64,000 bases of DNA from Ganoderma boninense. Lineage: Eukaryota > Basidiomycota > Agaricomycetes > Polyporales > Polyporaceae. Both the position numbers and the translations under genes were made by a program. Every line of letters starts with the position of its first letter. Positions within the stretch are counted from its first letter, which is position 1. The stretch is from contig CM035305.1 of the NCBI GenBank assembly GCA_002900995.3, positions 1-64,000 on the forward strand, read 5' to 3'. This document shows, piece after piece, positions 1 through 41,900 of the stretch. The notes under the pieces are model-generated. The model saw nothing but the letters and a program-made list of their open reading frames with translations, searched no databases and was not told the DNA's origin.

Positions 1-495
1 CTTAATCAGCACGTGCCTCATCAGGTGAGTGTTGTATCACGTGGGGTCTGGAAGTCACATGCTACGTCATGTGCCCAAGAAGAGGCACGTGAACACGCGC
101 GTCGCGAACGTGACTCATCACATGACCCACTGGCGATACGGGCGCTCGGCTACCGCCGAGCGAAGGCGCCAGATGGTCAGGTGATGTGGACTCGGGCCGA
201 AGTAGTCAGAACTGCTGATCTCGTTGCCTTCGGCAACTCGGCAGTTACTCCGCCCGTCCGGCAACGGACGACGGCGTCGGGATTCCGTCATTGTTGATGA
301 CCATGTCCGATCGGAGGTTTAGTCACCTCCTCACGTGTCGGATACGGGATAGACACGGAATTACTAATGGCAGCCCTGATGAGCCTCTATAAAGGCGAAA
401 CAGGCTGCGGTAGGAAGATCCCTACCGCCTGTCGGCTGCTTCGCCTTAGTCGCGCTCACGCTCGCTTCGCTCGCGTTCGCGCTCCTCCCTAACCC
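1..495 (+). repeat. PLE pseudo-LTR copy 1
   Basis: This is the first of three near-identical units (also 4884-5428 and 5429-5964). It differs from the others by only a few scattered bases. It carries four CACGTG palindromes, several GC-rich hairpins, the hammerhead ribozyme at 370-439 and a terminal stub of telomeric repeat (ccctaacccc near 488). It precedes the RT ORF by about 40 bp, so it is the likely promoter and 5' leader of the element. The ORF-like reading 13-297 is not conserved in copy 2, so the unit is non-coding. Confidence 0.85.
370..439 (+). ncRNA. Type I hammerhead ribozyme, copy 1
   Basis: All core elements are present in order. Stem I 5' strand GCAGCC is at 370-375 and the core CTGATGA at 376-382. 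Stem II is GCC/GGC (383-385 with 394-396), with an 8-nt loop. The second core element GAAA is at 397-400. Helix III starts at CAG 401-403 and closes with CTG 429-431. It encloses an 8-bp hairpin (407-414 with 421-428) and a small bulge. The scissile UC is at 432-433, and the stem I 3' strand GGCTGC is at 434-439, fully complementary to 370-375. Cleavage is expected after C433, 104 nt before the RT start codon. Stem I is the open helix, so this is type I. Hammerheads are known from PLE pseudo-LTRs; activity here is inferred. Confidence 0.9.
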
Positions 496-537
496 CTTTC
501 GAGCACCTCCTTCCCAAGCATCCACCAATCGCCCTCC

Positions 538-3500
538 ATGTCCCACGCCCCCCTCTCTTCTTTTGCTTCCTCTTCCTCTTCCCTGTCGTCCGCGCTTGCG
601 GCGGCATCGGCCAGTGTGGAGGCAGCGCACCTACCTGCGTGGTCCAAGGAAACACTGCGAGGCGCGCACCTCCCCGAGGACCGCCTCAACGCGCTCGCCA
701 CGGAGTCCGAGCACTCCGCGGCCTTCGTTCGAAGGCTCGCCTTCAACGACGCGCGCTCGGTAGCGGACCTGTGTCAACAGGTCCCGGTAAACTACCGACT
801 CTCCCTGTCGGAGGCGATCCGCCACATCGCCGATCTCGCTGAAAAGCGGGTAAACGTCAGGTCCGCCATCGCTAGGGCGGAGGCCGCGCAAACGGCCGAG
901 AAGGCGCTCCCCGCTCTCACGCTGAAAGTTCCGGTGTTGCAGCCGACGCGTGAGTACAGAGACGCGGGGAAGTGGGCGCCCGTCGAGGCCCAGGTCAAGG
1001 CGGCCATCGCCACGGCCCAGGCCGAGGTCTCCCGGCTCAACCTTGCTATGCACAAGGACGAGCTCGCCCACTTTGACGCGCTCCTCTCCAGGGACGCGAC
1101 CCTGGCCACGCTCAAGGATGCCGGTGAAGTCCGGTTCAAGGAGCTGGTCCAGTCCCACCAGGAACCAGTGCTCGAGTGGGCGGTGCCGTCTCCGGATGGT
1201 GCCGAGCCCATGGAGCCAGTGTGGTCGGCCGTCAGGCCGGCCGGTGCGAGGGACTCGCGGGTCGCAGGTTGGCGCGTGTCGCCGACTATCGAAATGGAGT
1301 GGGAGAAGCTCCTCCGCGACCTTCCCTTCCTCGCGATCCGCGCCGTCGGCATCGTCGAGAATCGCGATCTTGCGATGAAGATCAAGATCGAGAAGAAGGC
1401 CGCGGTCGAGAAGACCGCTGAGCAGGCGATGCCGCAGGTGGCCCAGGCCGGGCCATCCGTGCAGTCCCTCGTGGACAAAGCCGTCGCCGGCAAAGTCAAG
1501 TCGTTGGAGGCCCAGGTTAAGAAGGCGAGTCCGTCCGTTCGTTCGCGATTGATTCCGCTTATTAACAACCTTTCAGGTCACGCTCGAGACCAAAAAGGCA
1601 AAGGCCGCCAAGCAGTCCGCCGCCAAGACCCTCAAGAAGAAGGTCTCGCCGAAGCCCACCGCCCAGACCAAGAAGTCGGTCGCGTCGGGATCGACGAAGA
1701 AGGCCGCCGCGGGCAAGAGCAACAAGTCCAACGCCGCCGGCAACAAGAAGGACAAGGGCAAGGGACGCGCCAGTACGTATATGGCCGCCCTCGTACTTTG
1801 CCGGACAGGATACTAACTTTATCGCACTCGGATCAGATTGATTACGTGCTCCGGAATGCCCCGATCGGTATCATCGAGGCGTCCCGCTTCTCGGACTACG
1901 TACATACGTCGCCGGGTGTAGTTGTACCTGAACGCATCGCATATTCGCTCTCCGTTGGACTTAAATATATGTATCACCAGCCTCGAAACTCAGAATTAAT
2001 TATGCGTGCTTATAATGATTTCGACCGGCGAATCAGATGGCGTATCTTTTTCGCTTTTAAGGAAGGGCTGGATCAACCTTATGATCCTGATTATGACGTA
2101 GTGCGTGAGCGGGCCAACCGCCCACCACCGCGTCTGGCAACTTGGCTCGAAAAGGGACTCCAATTGGGTAGGCGCTTCGTTCAGGATACGATCGCCAAGA
2201 TCCCGGAGGATGACGGTGTGGCACCATACAAAACGCTCAGCCCATCGCCGACCGAAATAAGAGCTTTTCTTAACGAGCGTAACTATGTCGTTACTCTCAC
2301 AGATAAGAATTTGGGACTCGCCGTGTCAGAGCGTACCTGGCTTCATAAGGAAACGTTAAAGCTGTTAAGTAATACGAACGATTATGTACCTATTAACTTA
2401 TTAATGGCAAATGCGAAATTTAACGATAAACAAACACGAATTCGGGAGATAGCTAAAATCGTGGACAACATTCCCGAATGGGCTCAACTCAAGATCGATA
2501 AGTTCTTGTGCTCCAAATTCACGACCTCTGGGGAGTCGCACCTGTATCCGATATTCTATGGGATTCCTAAAATTCATAAGAATCCTGCAGGATTTCGGCC
2601 GATAATCCCGTGCCACTCCGTCGTATTTGGGCCCGCCGCTAAATTCGTGTCAAAGCAACTTAAACCTCTTATTCAAGCGGCGCCAACCGTTATTCATGGA
2701 TCCAAAGACTTGGTGCAAAAATTAAGTAAGCTACAACTTCCTAGACTTAACGTCGGCGAACGGTGGTACTTAGTCACCGGCGACGTCGTCGCATTTTACC
2801 CGAACGTTCCACTGAAAAAGTGCCTGGACATCGTATACCAGGCATGGCTAGACTTCACGTTCGATCCTTTAGTGTTTAATACGACGGAAGAGGAGCACGG
2901 CCCCGGCTGCAAAGGTCCCGACTTGCGCAGAAGGGCCGAGGTCTTCCGACGCTGTCTAGAAGTTGGTAATACAGATTTGATAACTAAATACCAGGATAAC
3001 TTATACCTTCAAAAGCGAGGCCTAGCTATGGGCGTCGCGGATTCTCCAGATTTGGCAAACCTTTACGGCTGCCACTTCGAAGCGAAGGCTGGTATAATGA
3101 CCGATGAACGCGTCGCGTTCTACGGTCGTTACATTGATGATTGCTTCAGTATAGTTCGTGCTAAGAGTAGTGACGAAGCCGAACGTTATATAGATTCAAA
3201 AATTAGATTCGATGGATGTCAAATCTTATGGGACTCTTCTCCATTGCGGTGTAACTTTTTAGACGCAACCTTCTACTTCAACGAGCGCGGAACGAAGTTA
3301 GAATGGCGACCGTATCGCAAAGGAAAGAACCATTTAGAACGAATTCCTTGGATATCACACCATCCTCTGGATGTTAAACGCGGTACTTTTACCGGTGAGA
3401 TGTCACGGTTAGCGACGCTCAGTAGTACTTATTCCGTCTACTTGGAGTCCGTGCACGACTTGGTATGTCTGTACGTCAAGCGGGGCTACCCACAAGACCT

Positions 3501-4137
3501 TATTTCGAACTGGGTGAGGAGATACCTTACCGAACGATGGGAAAAGCGTTTGAGTGAGAAAAACGCTGAGGAAGATGGAAACGTCTTGGTCCTCAAATCC
3601 GAGTTCAATACGGCCTGGAATTGGTTTAATGCTAAAGAATTAGGAGATATTATCCTCGGTTACTGGAAGGATTGGCATGCAGTTGCTGATGCTGGCCACG
3701 ATATGAAGCCCAGTACGCTTCAGAAGTGGCCGCGCCCGGCGCTGTCGAACATCGGCAGCCTGGGGGACACCCTCCATCAGTTTAAAACGCTGGTGAAGGT
3801 GTGGCCTTCGGGGGAAGAGTACATTCCCGACGTGCGTCTCATAGGACTTACCGATAAAAGACTGATCGTGTCGCGGAAACGCACACGAAACATGTTTGAT
3901 TTTACAAGCCTTTGGAAAAAGGAAGTATTCTCCAAGTTGGACGAGGCTGTTCTCGAAGAACGAGACCTAGACGCACCGGCTCCGCCGATGCCGGAACAGC
4001 CAACTACCGCTTCCAGCTCTCATCATCCGCCTCTTGGGACCGACCCGAGGGGTGACTCGGATGATGACGTGATTTATGTCAATTATAATCCATCTGGAAG
4101 ACGCTCGCCCGGTCTCGGTAGAGGAACGTTTGGTTAA
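538..4137 (+). CDS. Penelope-like reverse transcriptase, endonuclease-deficient, with two introns
   Basis: The protein copies element RNA into DNA, probably at chromosome ends. Residue numbers below follow the unspliced 1199-aa reading. The N-terminal third (about 1-330) is Ala/Glu/Lys-rich and not recognised. The RT part has DKNLGLAV near 589, PIFYGIPKIHK near 671-681, motif A GDVVAFYPNVP at 748, motif B RGLAMGVADSPDLANLYG at 827, and motif C YIDD at 865-868. No GIY-YIG domain follows. The direct reading across 1577-1792 gives an odd Arg/Gln-rich stretch, whereas another frame gives a Lys/Ala/Ser-rich, NLS-like segment. An intron at 1516-1576 (CAG|gttaag ... ttaac ... ttcag) switches into that frame. 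A second intron ending at 1836 (tactaac ... atcag), with a frame-keeping donor at 1793, switches back. Intron-containing PLEs are known in animals. The start at 538 is the first ATG after the ribozyme and the frame runs to TAA at 4135. The frame is intact, so the element may be active. Confidence 0.88.
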   Translation: MSHAPLSSFASSSSSLSSALAAASASVEAAHLPAWSKETLRGAHLPEDRLNALATESEHSAAFVRRLAFNDARSVADLCQQVPVNYRLSLSEAIRHIADLAEKRVNVRSAIARAEAAQTAEKALPALTLKVPVLQPTREYRDAGKWAPVEAQVKAAIATAQAEVSRLNLAMHKDELAHFDALLSRDATLATLKDAGEVRFKELVQSHQEPVLEWAVPSPDGAEPMEPVWSAVRPAGARDSRVAGWRVSPTIEMEWEKLLRDLPFLAIRAVGIVENRDLAMKIKIEKKAAVEKTAEQAMPQVAQAGPSVQSLVDKAVAGKVKSLEAQVKKASPSVRSRLIPLINNLSGHARDQKGKGRQAVRRQDPQEEGLAEAHRPDQEVGRVGIDEEGRRGQEQQVQRRRQQEGQGQGTRQYVYGRPRTLPDRILTLSHSDQIDYVLRNAPIGIIEASRFSDYVHTSPGVVVPERIAYSLSVGLKYMYHQPRNSELIMRAYNDFDRRIRWRIFFAFKEGLDQPYDPDYDVVRERANRPPPRLATWLEKGLQLGRRFVQDTIAKIPEDDGVAPYKTLSPSPTEIRAFLNERNYVVTLTDKNLGLAVSERTWLHKETLKLLSNTNDYVPINLLMANAKFNDKQTRIREIAKIVDNIPEWAQLKIDKFLCSKFTTSGESHLYPIFYGIPKIHKNPAGFRPIIPCHSVVFGPAAKFVSKQLKPLIQAAPTVIHGSKDLVQKLSKLQLPRLNVGERWYLVTGDVVAFYPNVPLKKCLDIVYQAWLDFTFDPLVFNTTEEEHGPGCKGPDLRRRAEVFRRCLEVGNTDLITKYQDNLYLQKRGLAMGVADSPDLANLYGCHFEAKAGIMTDERVAFYGRYIDDCFSIVRAKSSDEAERYIDSKIRFDGCQILWDSSPLRCNFLDATFYFNERGTKLEWRPYRKGKNHLERIPWISHHPLDVKRGTFTGEMSRLATLSSTYSVYLESVHDLVCLYVKRGYPQDLISNWVRRYLTERWEKRLSEKNAEEDGNVLVLKSEFNTAWNWFNAKELGDIILGYWKDWHAVADAGHDMKPSTLQKWPRPALSNIGSLGDTLHQFKTLVKVWPSGEEYIPDVRLIGLTDKRLIVSRKRTRNMFDFTSLWKKEVFSKLDEAVLEERDLDAPAPPMPEQPTTASSSHHPPLGTDPRGDSDDDVIYVNYNPSGRRSPGLGRGTFG

Positions 4138-4841
4138 AGATCGATCGGTGAATCGTCGATCTGGCGCCGGTACTTGGATACTGGCCAAGGGACTCAGCCG
4201 CTGGTTGGCCGAAACGTAGGCCGGAACAACGGCTCCCTTGATGGGCTAACTTTGCAGCCCCGACATACCCCGGTTAGGCACCGGGGCCGTACCTGTTTGG
4301 GCGGGTAGTATGGCCCGGAATACCACCCCGAAAGGGGCACCATTCCGGAGATCATCACTACTCGTCCTCTGAACAGGTCATGCACATCGCGAATGTCTCA
4401 ACGTTGTGGGATTGCGAGTGCTGTTCTGCTCCACTGCCTTGGCTACCGAACGCGGCTCGCTGCGCAAGCCACCGTTAATAGGTCTGAGTCGTCGTCAGCG
4501 CGCCTTTGAATGGCGACGACGAGCGCCGAGGCATCCCGGAGCGGGACGCATAAGCGGTCCTGCTTCTTGGTTAAGAACGCTACAGTATACATCATGGCTT
4601 GTGGGGGTCACGGTGATTCGAGGCGCATGACGTGCGCTGGTGTGGCTTCTACCCCCCGCCCCAGAACTTCTACCAAACGAAATCTACTTAACTTGTTCTT
4701 TAGAACCTATCACCATCAACGATGGACTACATTGTACGGCGACGCTCACCGTCGTCGGCGCGGTCTAACCCAAACCCTAACCGTACGTGTACATCACTGG
4801 ACTTAATCGTCCTACAGTGAATCTTGCTGACTACTATTCAG
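4138..4841 (+). other. PLE 3' region
   Basis: This is non-coding sequence between the RT stop codon and the terminal telomeric repeats. It contains several GC-rich inverted repeats (for example around 4258-4345), expected to fold as RNA hairpins, and a first patch of degenerate telomeric sequence (ctaacccaaaccctaacc, 4765-4782). It probably serves as the 3' UTR and the RT recognition region. No second ORF with recognisable domains is seen. Confidence 0.6.
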
Positions 4842-4883
4842 CTAACCCGAACCCTAACCCGAACCCTAACCCTAACTCTAACC
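4842..4883 (+). repeat. Telomeric-type repeat (CCCTAA/CCCGAA)
   Basis: Six to seven degenerate units of CCCTAA, CCCGAA and TCTAAC lie at the 3' end of the PLE, directly before the next pseudo-LTR. The C-rich strand reads left to right, as expected if the telomere lies to the left. TTAGGG is the usual telomeric repeat of basidiomycetes. Confidence 0.9.
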
Positions 4884-5291
4884 TACCCGCCCCAACGCTA
4901 AGTACGTTGAGGAGGTACGGCGCTTAATCAGCACGTGCCTCATCAGGTGAGTGTTGTATCACGTGGGGTCTGGTAGTCACATGCTACGTCATGTGCCCAA
5001 GAAGAGGCACGTGAACACGCGCGTCGCGAACGTGACTCATCACATGACCCACTGGCGATACGGGCGCTCGGCTACCGCCGAGCGAAGGCGCCAGATGGTC
5101 AGGTGATGTGGACTCGGGCCGAAGTAGTCAGAACTGCTGATCTCGTTGCCTTCGGCAACTCGGCAGTTGCTCCGCCCGTCCGGCAACGGACGACGGCGTC
5201 GGGATTCCGTCATTGTTGATGACCATGTCCGATCGGAGGTTTAGTCACCTCCTCACGTGTCGGATACGGGATAGACACGGAATTACTAATG

Positions 5292-5361
5292 GCAGCCCTG
5301 ATGAGCCTCTATAAAGGCGAAACAGGCTGCGGTAGGAAGATCCCTACCGCCTGTCGGCTGC
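5292..5361 (+). ncRNA. Type I hammerhead ribozyme, copy 2
   Basis: It is identical in sequence to the copy at 370-439: stem I 5292-5297 with 5356-5361, CTGATGA 5298-5304, GAAA 5319-5322, expected cleavage after C5355. With copy 1 it would cut a read-through transcript into a unit of about 4.9 kb (434-5355) that contains the whole RT ORF and the telomeric repeats. Confidence 0.9.
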
Positions 5362-5408
5362 TTCGCCTTAGTCGCGCTCACGCTCGCTTCGCTCGCGTTC
5401 GCGCTCCT

Positions 5409-5428
5409 CCCTAACCCTAACCCTAACC
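5409..5428 (+). repeat. Telomeric-type repeat, short
   Basis: Perfect CCCTAA units at the junction between pseudo-LTR copies 2 and 3. A partial unit (ccctaaccct) also ends copy 3 at 5954-5964, where the element array stops and the satellite repeat begins. Confidence 0.88.
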
Positions 5429-5964
5429 TACCCGCCCCAACGCTAAGTACGTTGAGGAGGTACAGCGCTTAATCAGCACGTGCCTCATCAGGTGAGTGTT
5501 GTATCACGTGGGGTCTGGAAGTCACATGCAACGTCATGTGCCCAAGAAGAGGCACGTGAACACGCGCGTCGCGAACGTGACTCATCACATGACCCACTGG
5601 CGATACGGGCGCTCGGCTACCGCCGAGCGAAGGCGCCAGATGGTCAGGTGATGTGGACTCGGGCCGAAGTAGTCAGAACTGCTGATCTCGTTGCCTTCGG
5701 CAACTCGGCAGTTGCTCCGTCCGTCCGGCAACGGACGACGGCGTCGGGATTCCATCATTGTTGATGACCACGTCCGATCGGAGGTTTAGTCACCTCCTCA
5801 TGTGTCGGATACGGGATAGACACGGAATTACTAATGGCAGCCCTGATGAGCCTCTATAAAGGCGAAACAGGCTGCGGTAGGAAGATCCCTACCGCCTGTC
5901 GGCTGCTTCGCCTTAGTCGCGCTCACGCTCGCTTCGCTCGCGTTCGCGCTCCTCCCTAACCCTA
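5429..5964 (+). repeat. PLE pseudo-LTR copy 3
   Basis: The third copy of the unit is in direct orientation and near-identical to copies 1 and 2, with a handful of substitutions. One changes the fourth CACGTG to CATGTG near 5800. It ends in one and a half telomeric units and passes straight into unrelated satellite sequence. No RT ORF follows, so this is a solo or truncated insertion, the innermost and presumably oldest of the array. Confidence 0.85.
5837..5906 (+). ncRNA. Type I hammerhead ribozyme, copy 3
   Basis: The same 70-nt motif as copies 1 and 2: stem I 5837-5842 with 5901-5906, CTGATGA 5843-5849, GAAA 5864-5867, predicted cleavage after C5900. Every core base is retained although the flanking repeat carries substitutions. 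Confidence 0.9.
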
Positions 5965-6640
5965 TTGATGTGAACTCTTTTGCACAGCATGAGAGAGGTC
6001 TACATCGACAACTTTCTCTCCTCGCGCACATCAGTTTGTCAGCAGATTGACCCATGAGGAGGCCGGCATCTAAGCCTAGCCTAACAGGTAAACAGGTGCG
6101 CGAAGGTGCGCGAGGCCCATAGTGCAACAACGAAGACAGGTATCAACACCAAACCTTTTGGAGAGCAAGGGCATGGTCAAAGGCTACAACTTTCTCTCCT
6201 CGCGCACACAGGTTTACCAACAGGTTGACCCGTGAGAGGGGCAGGAGTAGGGGCTATGCCAATACCCAAACAAGTGTGCGAGCACTGCGCGAGGCCCCTA
6301 CCGCCACAACGGAGACAGCTATTGGGGTAAACTCTTTTGGGCAGCGTAGGGGAGGTCTATATCTACAACTTTCTCTCCTCGCGCATGTCAGTTTCTCAGC
6401 AGGTTGACACGGCAGAGGGCAAGGAGTGCTCTAAGGCCTTGAGGCAAAAAAGTGCGCGAGCACTGCGCGAGGCCTCTACTGGCCCAACGAAGACAGCTAT
6501 TGACATGAAACTTTTTGGAGAGCATGTGGGAGGTCTAGAGCTACAACTTTGCCTCCTCGCGCACGTCAGTTGGTAAGGAGGGTGAGGCGTGGCGGCCCAA
6601 AAACCCAACTGCGCGAGGTGCGCGAGCTGGCCCCAAGGCC
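5965..6640. repeat. Subtelomeric tandem repeat, period about 178 bp, four copies
   Basis: The landmark 'actttctctcctcgcgcac' (with small changes) recurs at about 6011, 6190, 6368 and 6546, giving spacings of 178-179 bp. Each unit also contains 'agacagctattg', 'cttttgg..agc', 'ggaggtct' and 'gcgcgaggc' in the same order. The units have diverged by scattered substitutions and small indels. The array starts directly at the end of the PLE pseudo-LTR and fades out at about 6640. No coding sense is seen. Confidence 0.85.
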
Positions 6641-38936: not shown

Positions 38937-41900
38937 ATGACTCAAGATTCTCCTTCTTCCTCTCGTCTTCAACAAAAGTCGTCCGATTCTGACAATCGCT
39001 CTCGCTCTCATGCAAACAACCATGCCATCGACCCCGCCACTTTCTACGGCGCATCGGCCTCGAACCTCGGCTCCTCCTCCACCTCCTACATCTCCCCGGA
39101 ATCCACATCCACATCCTTCCGCCAGCCCGAGCTCGTCGAGGAGGAGCCAATACCCAAACACACCTCCACCTGGGACCCCGAGGCTACCGCCTGGGGCGAA
39201 CCCAGCGATGGATGGGGCAACCTCGACTCCCTCGGCTCCTGGACCGACCCTCCCGTCTCCGTCAAGGTCCCCATAGACGGCAGAGACGACTACGAGGAGG
39301 TGCACTGGTACGATCCCGCCGTCCGCGCCCTCCACGCCCGCCCCGGCCCCGGCGGCGTCCTCCCGCCGCTCCTCGCCGACATGCTCCACGACCCCGACCA
39401 CGCGCTGTACTCGGTGAGCACCCAGGCGCACCCCACGCTCATCTCCCCCGCCACGCCCTACACGCCGACGGCGGACGAGGTGCGGACGGCGATCCCGCAT
39501 CCGAACGCGTACTTCTGCCGCGAGCACAACGGCTGGGTCCTCCTCCTCTGGAAGGCGTCCACCGTCCTCCCGCCGCTCGTCCGCGAGCCCGAGCCCCCGG
39601 TGCCCGACCAGGCGCGTCGGAAGCGCACCAACTCGTGCGTCGGGGACGGCGAGCAGCCCTTCGGCCAGGCGAACCTCACGCACCACTGGCACCGGTACGA
39701 GAAGGCGGTCGACGCGGCGCGGCTCAACCCTCCCTATGCCCATGGCGAACTTCTGCTTGACCTGTATCTCTGCTGCCAGTGCTCGATGCACTGCCTCGTC
39801 TCGGACGTTATTCCTGGGGTCATTCCGCTCTCGCTCGTGAACGAGTTTACGCTCGACAAAATCGGACATCCCGCGATCGACAAGACGCCGAAGGCGACGG
39901 TGGTGGCTGGTTGGGAGACGGTGCTCACGTGAGTAATGCGTCCTGCTTGTGTTCGTCTTTTCAGAAGAAGACTGGTCAGAGGGAGGGTGTCTGCTTCTCA
40001 TTTTGGTTGCAGCCCGAGTGGCTTTGCTAAAAAAAATCGAGATCATGAAATGGTCGCCTCTCCTCTTCCCCCCGAATTGCTACACCGTATCCACCTGGCT
40101 TGCCTCCCGTCGCCGAATATGAATGAAGAAGATGAATTTTAAGCTATGGCGTCGTCTGGGTTCTACTACATTCTCACAGATTCCAGGTCGTCTTTCCAAA
40201 CTAACACGCTGGAGACGGCAATTAAGTGCGACAGACCCAGTCGACCCTAAAATCTGCTGTTGGGCGGGGCTAGTGATTTTTCGATGAAATCCACGGGTAG
40301 GAATTCCTCGTACTTTCTGGGGATTTAGTGCAAGATGAAGTAGCTTCACGCCCATGCACAGCTTTTGCATGTCATGATCATGGTCGATTAGGGCTATTTA
40401 TCGCATGACCGGCACGGCGGTCGGCGTACTTGGTGTCCATCCAGATCAGTATTGACTGTAGTCCATCAGGATCATCGACAATCGACTGTGGAGAGACGAG
40501 AAGCGTTCCCTGCCTGTAACACGACCAAGATTCCACACCAAACTCGGCTGGAACGACCATGTGTGAGTTACATCTATGCTCCACGGTGCGTGCACTGACT
40601 GGGCGCAGCAAGGGCGTTTTCGCTGCGCTTGGGTTTCCCCTCGACAAGCTGAAGCAAGGTGACGGGAAGGGGGATGAGCTGGCGCTGCAGCCACCGCCCA
40701 TCGACCCGTCTACGGCGGAAGGCAGGGCGTCGCGGACGAAACTGCTGCGGGCGTGGGTCGAGCTGAGCGCGTGGCTGGCTATCTACGAGAAGGCGAACAG
40801 TGAGTCGACTAGGCCAAGACGTGCGCTGCTGCTGACTTTGTACAGAGGAGGCGCTCAAGGACTACAACCCGATGGTCATTCATGTCAAGACGGACAGCGA
40901 GCGCAATCTGTACCAGACGGGCATCGGTGCACATGTCTCCCAGAGTTGGTATTTTATTTGGTTTCCTCGTCACTCGCCTCACGCCCTGTGTAGTAGCGCG
41001 AGGCGGCCTTCCCGAACACGTCATCGCCGAGGCCCAGTCGGACCCGTCGTGGAAGGCGTTGGGCATGACGCCGATCACTTATTCCTGGGGTAAGTCTGAT
41101 CTCTGCCAACCCATCTGCGCCTCTCACGTACTCGCCGGCAGAGCTCCTGGTGTTCGCATATCTGGCGCAGTGCAGGTGCGACCCGGCGAACACGATGGTG
41201 TACTTCACGCATCTCGTCAAGATTGTGGACTCGCTGATCAACTGGCGCGCGGGCGAGCCGGACCAGCTGCAGGCGTTCATCGTGCAGGAGAAGGAGCGGT
41301 ACCGGTTTACGCTGAAGGAGCACGACGAGTACGCCCGCCAGCTCGGGTTCGGACGGAACAACGATCTTGGGGTGGAGCTGGATAGCGACGTGGACGACGA
41401 GTTTATCGCGCGGGCATGGCGTAGCGCGCGGCAGCGGGCGTGGATGAACCCCGGGGACGCGTCGCAGAGGCGAGCGGCGCTGAACGACGCGCTGAAAGTC
41501 GTGGCGGAGCAGCGGGGGAGCGCGGCGCTGATGAAAGTGTGGATGGAGGAAAAGGGGAGTGGGATGTCGCCCGAGACGGCGTACCAGACGCTGGACGTCC
41601 CTCGGGACGTAGACGAGACGATGCTGCTAACAGTGTACTCGATGCGGGTACGTGATTCTTGCCGCTATCGGGAGGGATCTGACGATCTTTCTCTCGCATT
41701 TTCAGATCGAGGACCAGCCGAGTCAGGCGGACAGGATGCGCGAGGCTCTGAATATCATTGCAGAAGTGACTAACAGCGAACGATTGCGCCAGTTCCTGGC
41801 GACGGGCCGCGATCGTGGGTGGTTTTGTCCACTAACCCCACTCTGATCTGACGATTCCACAGCGGGGGACACGAACATCTTGAACACGAGTCCGGAAATG

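Follow-up and report, generated by a model that had tools for sequence, protein, structure and literature searches.

The window analysed here, a 64,000-nt stretch of Ganoderma boninense DNA, forms the beginning of a 5.46-Mb contig (C2, CM035305.1) in a 55.6-Mb genome. Its first six kilobases hold, on the forward strand, a retroelement, apparently a Penelope-like element (PLE) of the endonuclease-deficient type, that carries a hammerhead ribozyme motif three times. The element opens with a 5' pseudo-long terminal repeat (pseudo-LTR; 1-495), which is cut by the contig end and ends in CCCTAACCC (487-495). An open frame of 1199 codons follows (538-4137), with a YIDD motif and, from about position 1846, a reverse transcriptase of predicted telomerase-like fold. 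Further on, an internal telomere-like tract (4842-4883) lies upstream of the 3' pseudo-LTR (4884-5417), and telomere repeats (5409-5427) link the latter to an inner solo pseudo-LTR unit (5428-5964), which ends in CCCTAACCCTA (5954-5964) before unrelated sequence begins.

All three pseudo-LTRs contain the same hammerhead on the forward strand: at 370-439 in the 5' pseudo-LTR, at 5292-5361 in the 3' pseudo-LTR (offset 4922 from the first copy) and at 5837-5906 in the inner solo unit (offset 5467). The three 70-nt copies are identical to one another, and pattern and descriptor scans recovered the coordinates of the original prediction exactly, with every core base intact. In the first copy, stem I (370-375/434-439) is followed by the CUGAUGA core (376-382), stem II (383-386/393-396, loop 387-392), GAA (397-399) and stem III (400-404/428-432, bulge 405-407, 408-414/421-427, loop 415-420). 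C17 lies at 433 and is preceded by G431-U432, which completes a GUC triplet. The predicted cuts fall between 433 and 434, between 5355 and 5356, and between 5900 and 5901, the first of them as expected from the originally predicted product start at base 434. CUGANGA, GAA, A15.1-U16.1, H17 and three paired stems with the open end at stem I are all present; judged by sequence, the window copies are complete type I hammerhead ribozymes, as originally classified, and cleavage by them is likely. Helix III is long, as had been claimed, but not by virtue of an 8-bp hairpin extension: in the hammerhead register it consists of 5 bp, a 3-nt bulge and 7 bp (12 bp in all), and 8 bp of the extension form only in the free hairpin. 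The original prediction missed a possible outer stem I arm, read from the sequence as ACUAA 363-367 paired with UUAGU 446-450 across an internal loop (368-369/440-445), which extends the first copy to 363-450 on the forward strand and for which the energy of the structure was computed. Besides this possible arm, loops 1 and 2, between which a tertiary contact may form, are both present.

The core pattern CTGATGA-N4-30-CGAAAC matched the window three times, compared with a mean of 0.13 across 100 shuffles. A type I descriptor (core, stem II of at least 3 bp, stem III of at least 4 bp from A15.1-U16.1, H17, stem I of at least 5 bp, G-U pairs allowed) matched three times on the forward strand, not at all on the reverse strand, and not once in 40 first-order Markov controls (64 kb, both strands). 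The covariance-model scan that had been proposed gave a divided answer. An Rfam scan of the whole window returned no hammerhead at E<=1, but the same scan of 330-480 (151 nt) placed two hammerhead families on the expected core, RAGATH-1-hammerhead at 24.4 bits (E 0.023; gathering score 56.3) and Hammerhead_HH9 at 20.9 bits (E 0.0036; gathering score 52), neither of which reaches its threshold. The gathering score is a curator's threshold rather than a chemical feature, and the scores here are probably lowered because helix III is long. A genome search with RF00163 gave no match, but 14 controls were equally silent. For other hammerhead families, the pattern CTGANGAG-N6-16-CGAAAC found 32 matches in the genome, 15 of the window family and 17 others, next to 23 for a reversed control pattern. 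Elsewhere in the window, an Rfam match to SMAD5-AS1_2 (40582-40694) is at chance level (E 0.99, 20.8 of 50 bits).

The element protein was studied as P0001, the last 763 residues of the long frame. At E<=0.001 it has 499 homologues among 7998 candidates scored; Psilocybe cubensis, with a homologue at 46%, is the sole source-named organism among the best 120 of the 499, and this homologue by itself points to a host that is probably a basidiomycete. NCBIfam gave three weak reverse-transcriptase matches far under the cut-off, and RVT_1 came just under its cut-off in two of the five homologues scanned. A Pfam search of P0001 at E<=10 found no domain, GIY-YIG included, and a sequence search of the PDB found no match. 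An AlphaFold2 model built from 25 sequences (pLDDT 71.6) was compared with the PDB by Foldseek, and ranks 1-12 were all telomerase (E 1.5e-7 to 4.9e-6). DKNLG, GIPKIHK and YIDD, which we take to be marks of PLEs, have most residues invariant or nearly so in the 25-sequence alignment. Of four copies found, two have kept the reverse transcriptase frame open across 763 codons. The genome as a whole has six GIY-YIG matches, all on contig C19 and none at the element; C19 may be mitochondrial. Two stretches within the unspliced open frame (1529-1576 and 1773-1836) are intron-like, with branch-like TTAAC and TACTAAC and CAG ends, and excising these two candidate introns broke the frame with the borders tried.

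A 131-nt query found 17 copies in the genome, grouped into 11 sites. The 70-nt ribozyme is exact in 13 of them, and core-disrupting indels occur in two, an insertion in the core of L031 and several indels within the 70 nt of L032 on contig C11. The others are L026, with a loop II substitution, and L028, with U7 changed to C in the core, a change that is presumably tolerated in hammerheads. Over the repeat, identity is 97-100% for most copies and 92% for the C11 copy. Two of the 17 are 5' pseudo-LTRs before an element body, four are succeeded by a further pseudo-LTR unit and 11 form terminal 3' ends. Every one of these 11 ends enters CCCTAA repeats about 53 nt past the predicted cut, reading ...CTCC (CTCCTT in C11) and then about one to four CCCTAA repeats, beyond which the flanks, judged by eye, differ between sites. 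The distance to a contig end is at most 123 kb at 10 of the 11 sites (trivially for C27, whose contig is 52 kb) and 257 kb at C7; at eight sites, the 5' end points to the nearer contig end. Five of the 5' truncations are readable, and the remaining 5' ends enter unreadable sequence or the contig end. The C7 copy stops within the reverse transcriptase and bears a (CCCTAA)5CCC cap, which matches the addition of telomeric repeats to a truncated 5' end that an excerpt of PMC3846280 gives as a signature of endonuclease-deficient PLEs. The available part of a telomere-to-telomere study of Agaricus bisporus describes PLEs at two chromosome ends without telomere repeats and calls them telomere-linked (PMC7473861). 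The original placement of the hammerheads in a telomere-linked, Penelope-like and probably fungal retroelement is borne out. As a separate observation, the sequence preceding the truncated copies on C6 and C13 (L030, L062) ends in CCCCCTACTTTACACCCTAT and is joined at different element positions; this flank may derive from a different telomeric repeat whose 3' end lands on truncated ends. The C27 copy (L025) has a comparable 5' flank, of which 70 bases recur once on C9.

The intact core had also been read as a sign of selection, with very recent copying as the alternative. Over 495 positions (without the final two aligned bases, at which copy 1 enters the element body), the window repeats outside the 70 nt differ at two places between copies 1 and 2 and at six between copy 3 and either of them. 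This amounts to seven variable places outside the ribozyme and none inside, a distribution with a chance probability of 0.35. Genome-wide, with the loop II change of L026 counted and the C11 copy left out, variable sites number 2 of 70 in the ribozyme and 10 of 470 outside (Fisher p = 0.66). Selection on the core is not supported at these similar densities: since most copies are 97-100% identical and the ribozyme is about as variable as its flanks, recent copying suffices.

We consider it highly probable that the window holds type I hammerheads in the pseudo-LTRs of an endonuclease-deficient, telomere-adding fungal PLE of the Athena/Coprina kind, with a scheme of tail priming, tail presentation and partial cutting. 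Briefly, the CCCUAA tail of the RNA would pair with the G-rich overhang at the tip of a chromosome, and the paired overhang would then prime reverse transcription of the element, so that copies that stop early could receive a telomere-repeat cap. The hammerhead would present the tail as a folded 3' module and would cut a share of the transcripts, probably trimming read-through from adjacent tandem units and possibly yielding circles. The 12-bp helix III leads us to expect that it can cleave as a monomer, unlike most animal PLE hammerheads. Tail presentation with partial self-cleavage is ranked first because three lines agree: the tails in the genome, the lizard PLE PAc and the model for Terminons, giant telomeric PLEs of rotifers. 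A tail search allowing at most two mismatches found 16 tails. All 16 follow an uncut hammerhead, and in each case the distance from the beginning of the known hammerhead stretch to the tail is 120-125 nt. None of them belongs to a copy beginning at the cut site, although the C11 copy was unmatched and more divergent orphan tails would escape. The inserted RNA therefore ran through the cut site, either uncut or cut and religated, and cleavage is unnecessary for the inserted template. For PAc, sections of PMC11167929 report that hammerhead mutants still insert and that unprocessed RNA is the main substrate. The Terminon model, as outlined in part of PMC6431247, has the hammerhead expose the telomere-complementary tail.

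Several observations weigh against this reading, beginning with the uncut hammerheads that precede all of the tails just described. The minimum-energy fold of 358-458 differs from the hammerhead, and Vienna, whose model leaves tertiary contacts outside, favours other folds by 1.0-3.4 kcal/mol across the transcript ends tried. The paired state has a probability of about 7% in stem I, about 14% in stem II and 2-3% in the inner 5 bp of stem III; with competing folds preferred and stems this improbable, cleavage may be of limited efficiency. At the genomic level, the 5' end points away from the nearer contig end at three of the 11 sites, and four of the five readable 5' truncations (C6 at 54 kb, C9, C13 and C27) have no direct telomere cap, with other flanks instead and a stray TAACCC some tens of bases off. 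No curated family was above the cut-off for the element protein. The telomerase lead is narrow and the superposition poor (TM 0.29-0.36 by query length, rmsd 15-25); rank 13 is a viral polymerase (E 6.2e-6), and other polymerases appear from there on. The match is therefore one of general fold, and at that level the modelled reverse transcriptase is telomerase-like. Finally, searches for the DNA of relatives by protein alignment matched none of 47 candidates in viral_contigs and one of 62 in genome_contigs, a bacterial match (46% over 48 residues); a pattern scan of viral_contigs had matched at least 120 stretches.

An idea tried for the competing folds was a switch in which 440-447 (UUCGCCUU) pairs with 392-399 (AAGGCGAA) and masks the core (mean pair probability 0.79). 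It was dropped, as 186 of 500 shuffled 3' flanks disfavour the hammerhead as strongly or more.

The alternative that survives best, though we regard it as rather unlikely, is that the hammerhead acts purely through its fold, as a passive 3' module exposing the telomere-complementary tail and binding the reverse transcriptase, with self-cleavage incidental or off. Such a module would account for tails that all follow uncut hammerheads, for the alternative RNA folds that compete with the hammerhead and for the insertion of PAc mutants from mainly unprocessed RNA (PMC11167929, in the sections cited above). Structure alone, however, would not require the catalytic bases and the GUC triplet, which are all retained in 13 of the 17 copies, young as these are. 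Moreover, the same sections of PMC11167929 state that PLE hammerheads self-cleaved at 3-25 mM magnesium in earlier work. The hammerhead of PAc itself required protein for cleavage in vitro, again according to that part of the source.

A second alternative starts from the tandem arrangement of the units. A second pseudo-LTR follows the first at four sites; at three of them (the third window copy on C2, C6 at 43 kb and C6 at 54 kb) the second unit begins in the telomere-like tract that occupies 4842-4883 in the full element, and at the fourth, on C13, it begins well within the pseudo-LTR. It is improbable that transcripts are cut at both pseudo-LTR hammerheads, circularised and reverse-transcribed as rolling circles at the telomere into head-to-tail units, as proposed for retrozymes. 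Both full-length copies do have a hammerhead at each end, and the units are spaced 542-555 nt apart at three sites. In addition, both pseudo-LTRs of the C6 element (L019 at 54844 and L018 at 59761) lack the same three bases, which are retained in all eight of the other copies that span the place. Yet the 5' and 3' repeats on C2 have no private change in common, the C13 tandem begins within the pseudo-LTR, and linear read-through transcripts account for the same layout. Window copies 2 and 3 differ at six places and are therefore not products of a single round of copying. A fuller version, to which we give slightly less credence still, is a telomeric retroelement that makes RNA circles by a monomer-active hammerhead, is primed by the G-overhang through its CCCUAA tail and extends chromosome ends by rolling-circle reverse transcription, with the tract at 4842-4883 turning a stopped cDNA into an end on which the next copy could land. 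In the telomere-like tract, a stopped cDNA may have been used like a telomere, or the tract may be a recombination site. The tandem facts fit stepwise addition at a chromosome end and are no proof of rolling-circle copying. Directly inside of the last pseudo-LTR, the window also contains a tandem array with a 178-bp unit (5962-6571).

A chance resemblance or dead relic is very improbable: Rfam scores under the gathering thresholds and core-disrupting indels in two copies would suit it, but the descriptor's silence in all 40 controls excludes chance, 13 of 17 copies are exact, and two of four copies keep an open reverse transcriptase frame of 763 codons.

Among known systems, the preferred PLE reading is closest to Athena of rotifers and Coprina of fungi, with which the element has in common a telomerase-like reverse transcriptase, no GIY-YIG found, a 3' end on telomere repeats and one telomere-capped 5' truncation. 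For Coprina, the likeness is with its reported features, and the element is a candidate member of the Coprina/Athena clade. Terminons likewise carry, at the 3' end, a hammerhead followed directly by reverse-complement telomere repeats, as described in part of PMC6431247, but differ from the window element, which is about 5 kb long, has a single long frame and shows no accessory gene. Their hammerheads are called minimal in an excerpt of PMC7761336, in contrast to the 12-bp helix III here. More generally, PLE and Terminon hammerheads are described as minimal, without helix III or loop contacts, in the portions available of PMC6155905, PMC7761336 and PMC7229834. The minimal PLE hammerheads of metazoans are also of type I and also occur in both pseudo-LTRs; as far as these portions go, helix III is usually missing from them and cleavage may take place in dimers, whereas the window hammerhead has 12 bp and a possible outer stem I arm. 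Retrozymes, which are small non-autonomous elements with circular RNA, have small tandem units with one hammerhead each in common with the window, but the unit here is part of an element that encodes its own reverse transcriptase.

The term unusual variant, used in the original prediction, would fit when set against the excerpted reviews of minimal PLE hammerheads (PMC6155905, PMC7761336). A literature search returned no title or abstract opening on fungal PLE hammerheads, which is no proof of absence in print. Cervera and de la Pena are said to have described, in 2014, canonical hammerheads in plant PLEs and variants in fungal and protist PLEs that are stable as monomers. The window copies are apparently of the same kind as the latter, which makes the term doubtful; the hammerhead belongs to a kind already described.

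The function of hammerheads in PLEs is still termed a mystery in the text available of PMC7761336. The Ganoderma element offers a clean case, with a full-size ribozyme expected to work alone, young copies, and a position about 53 nt from a telomere-complementary tail, and is suited to testing whether the role of the ribozyme is to cut, to present the tail or to make circles.

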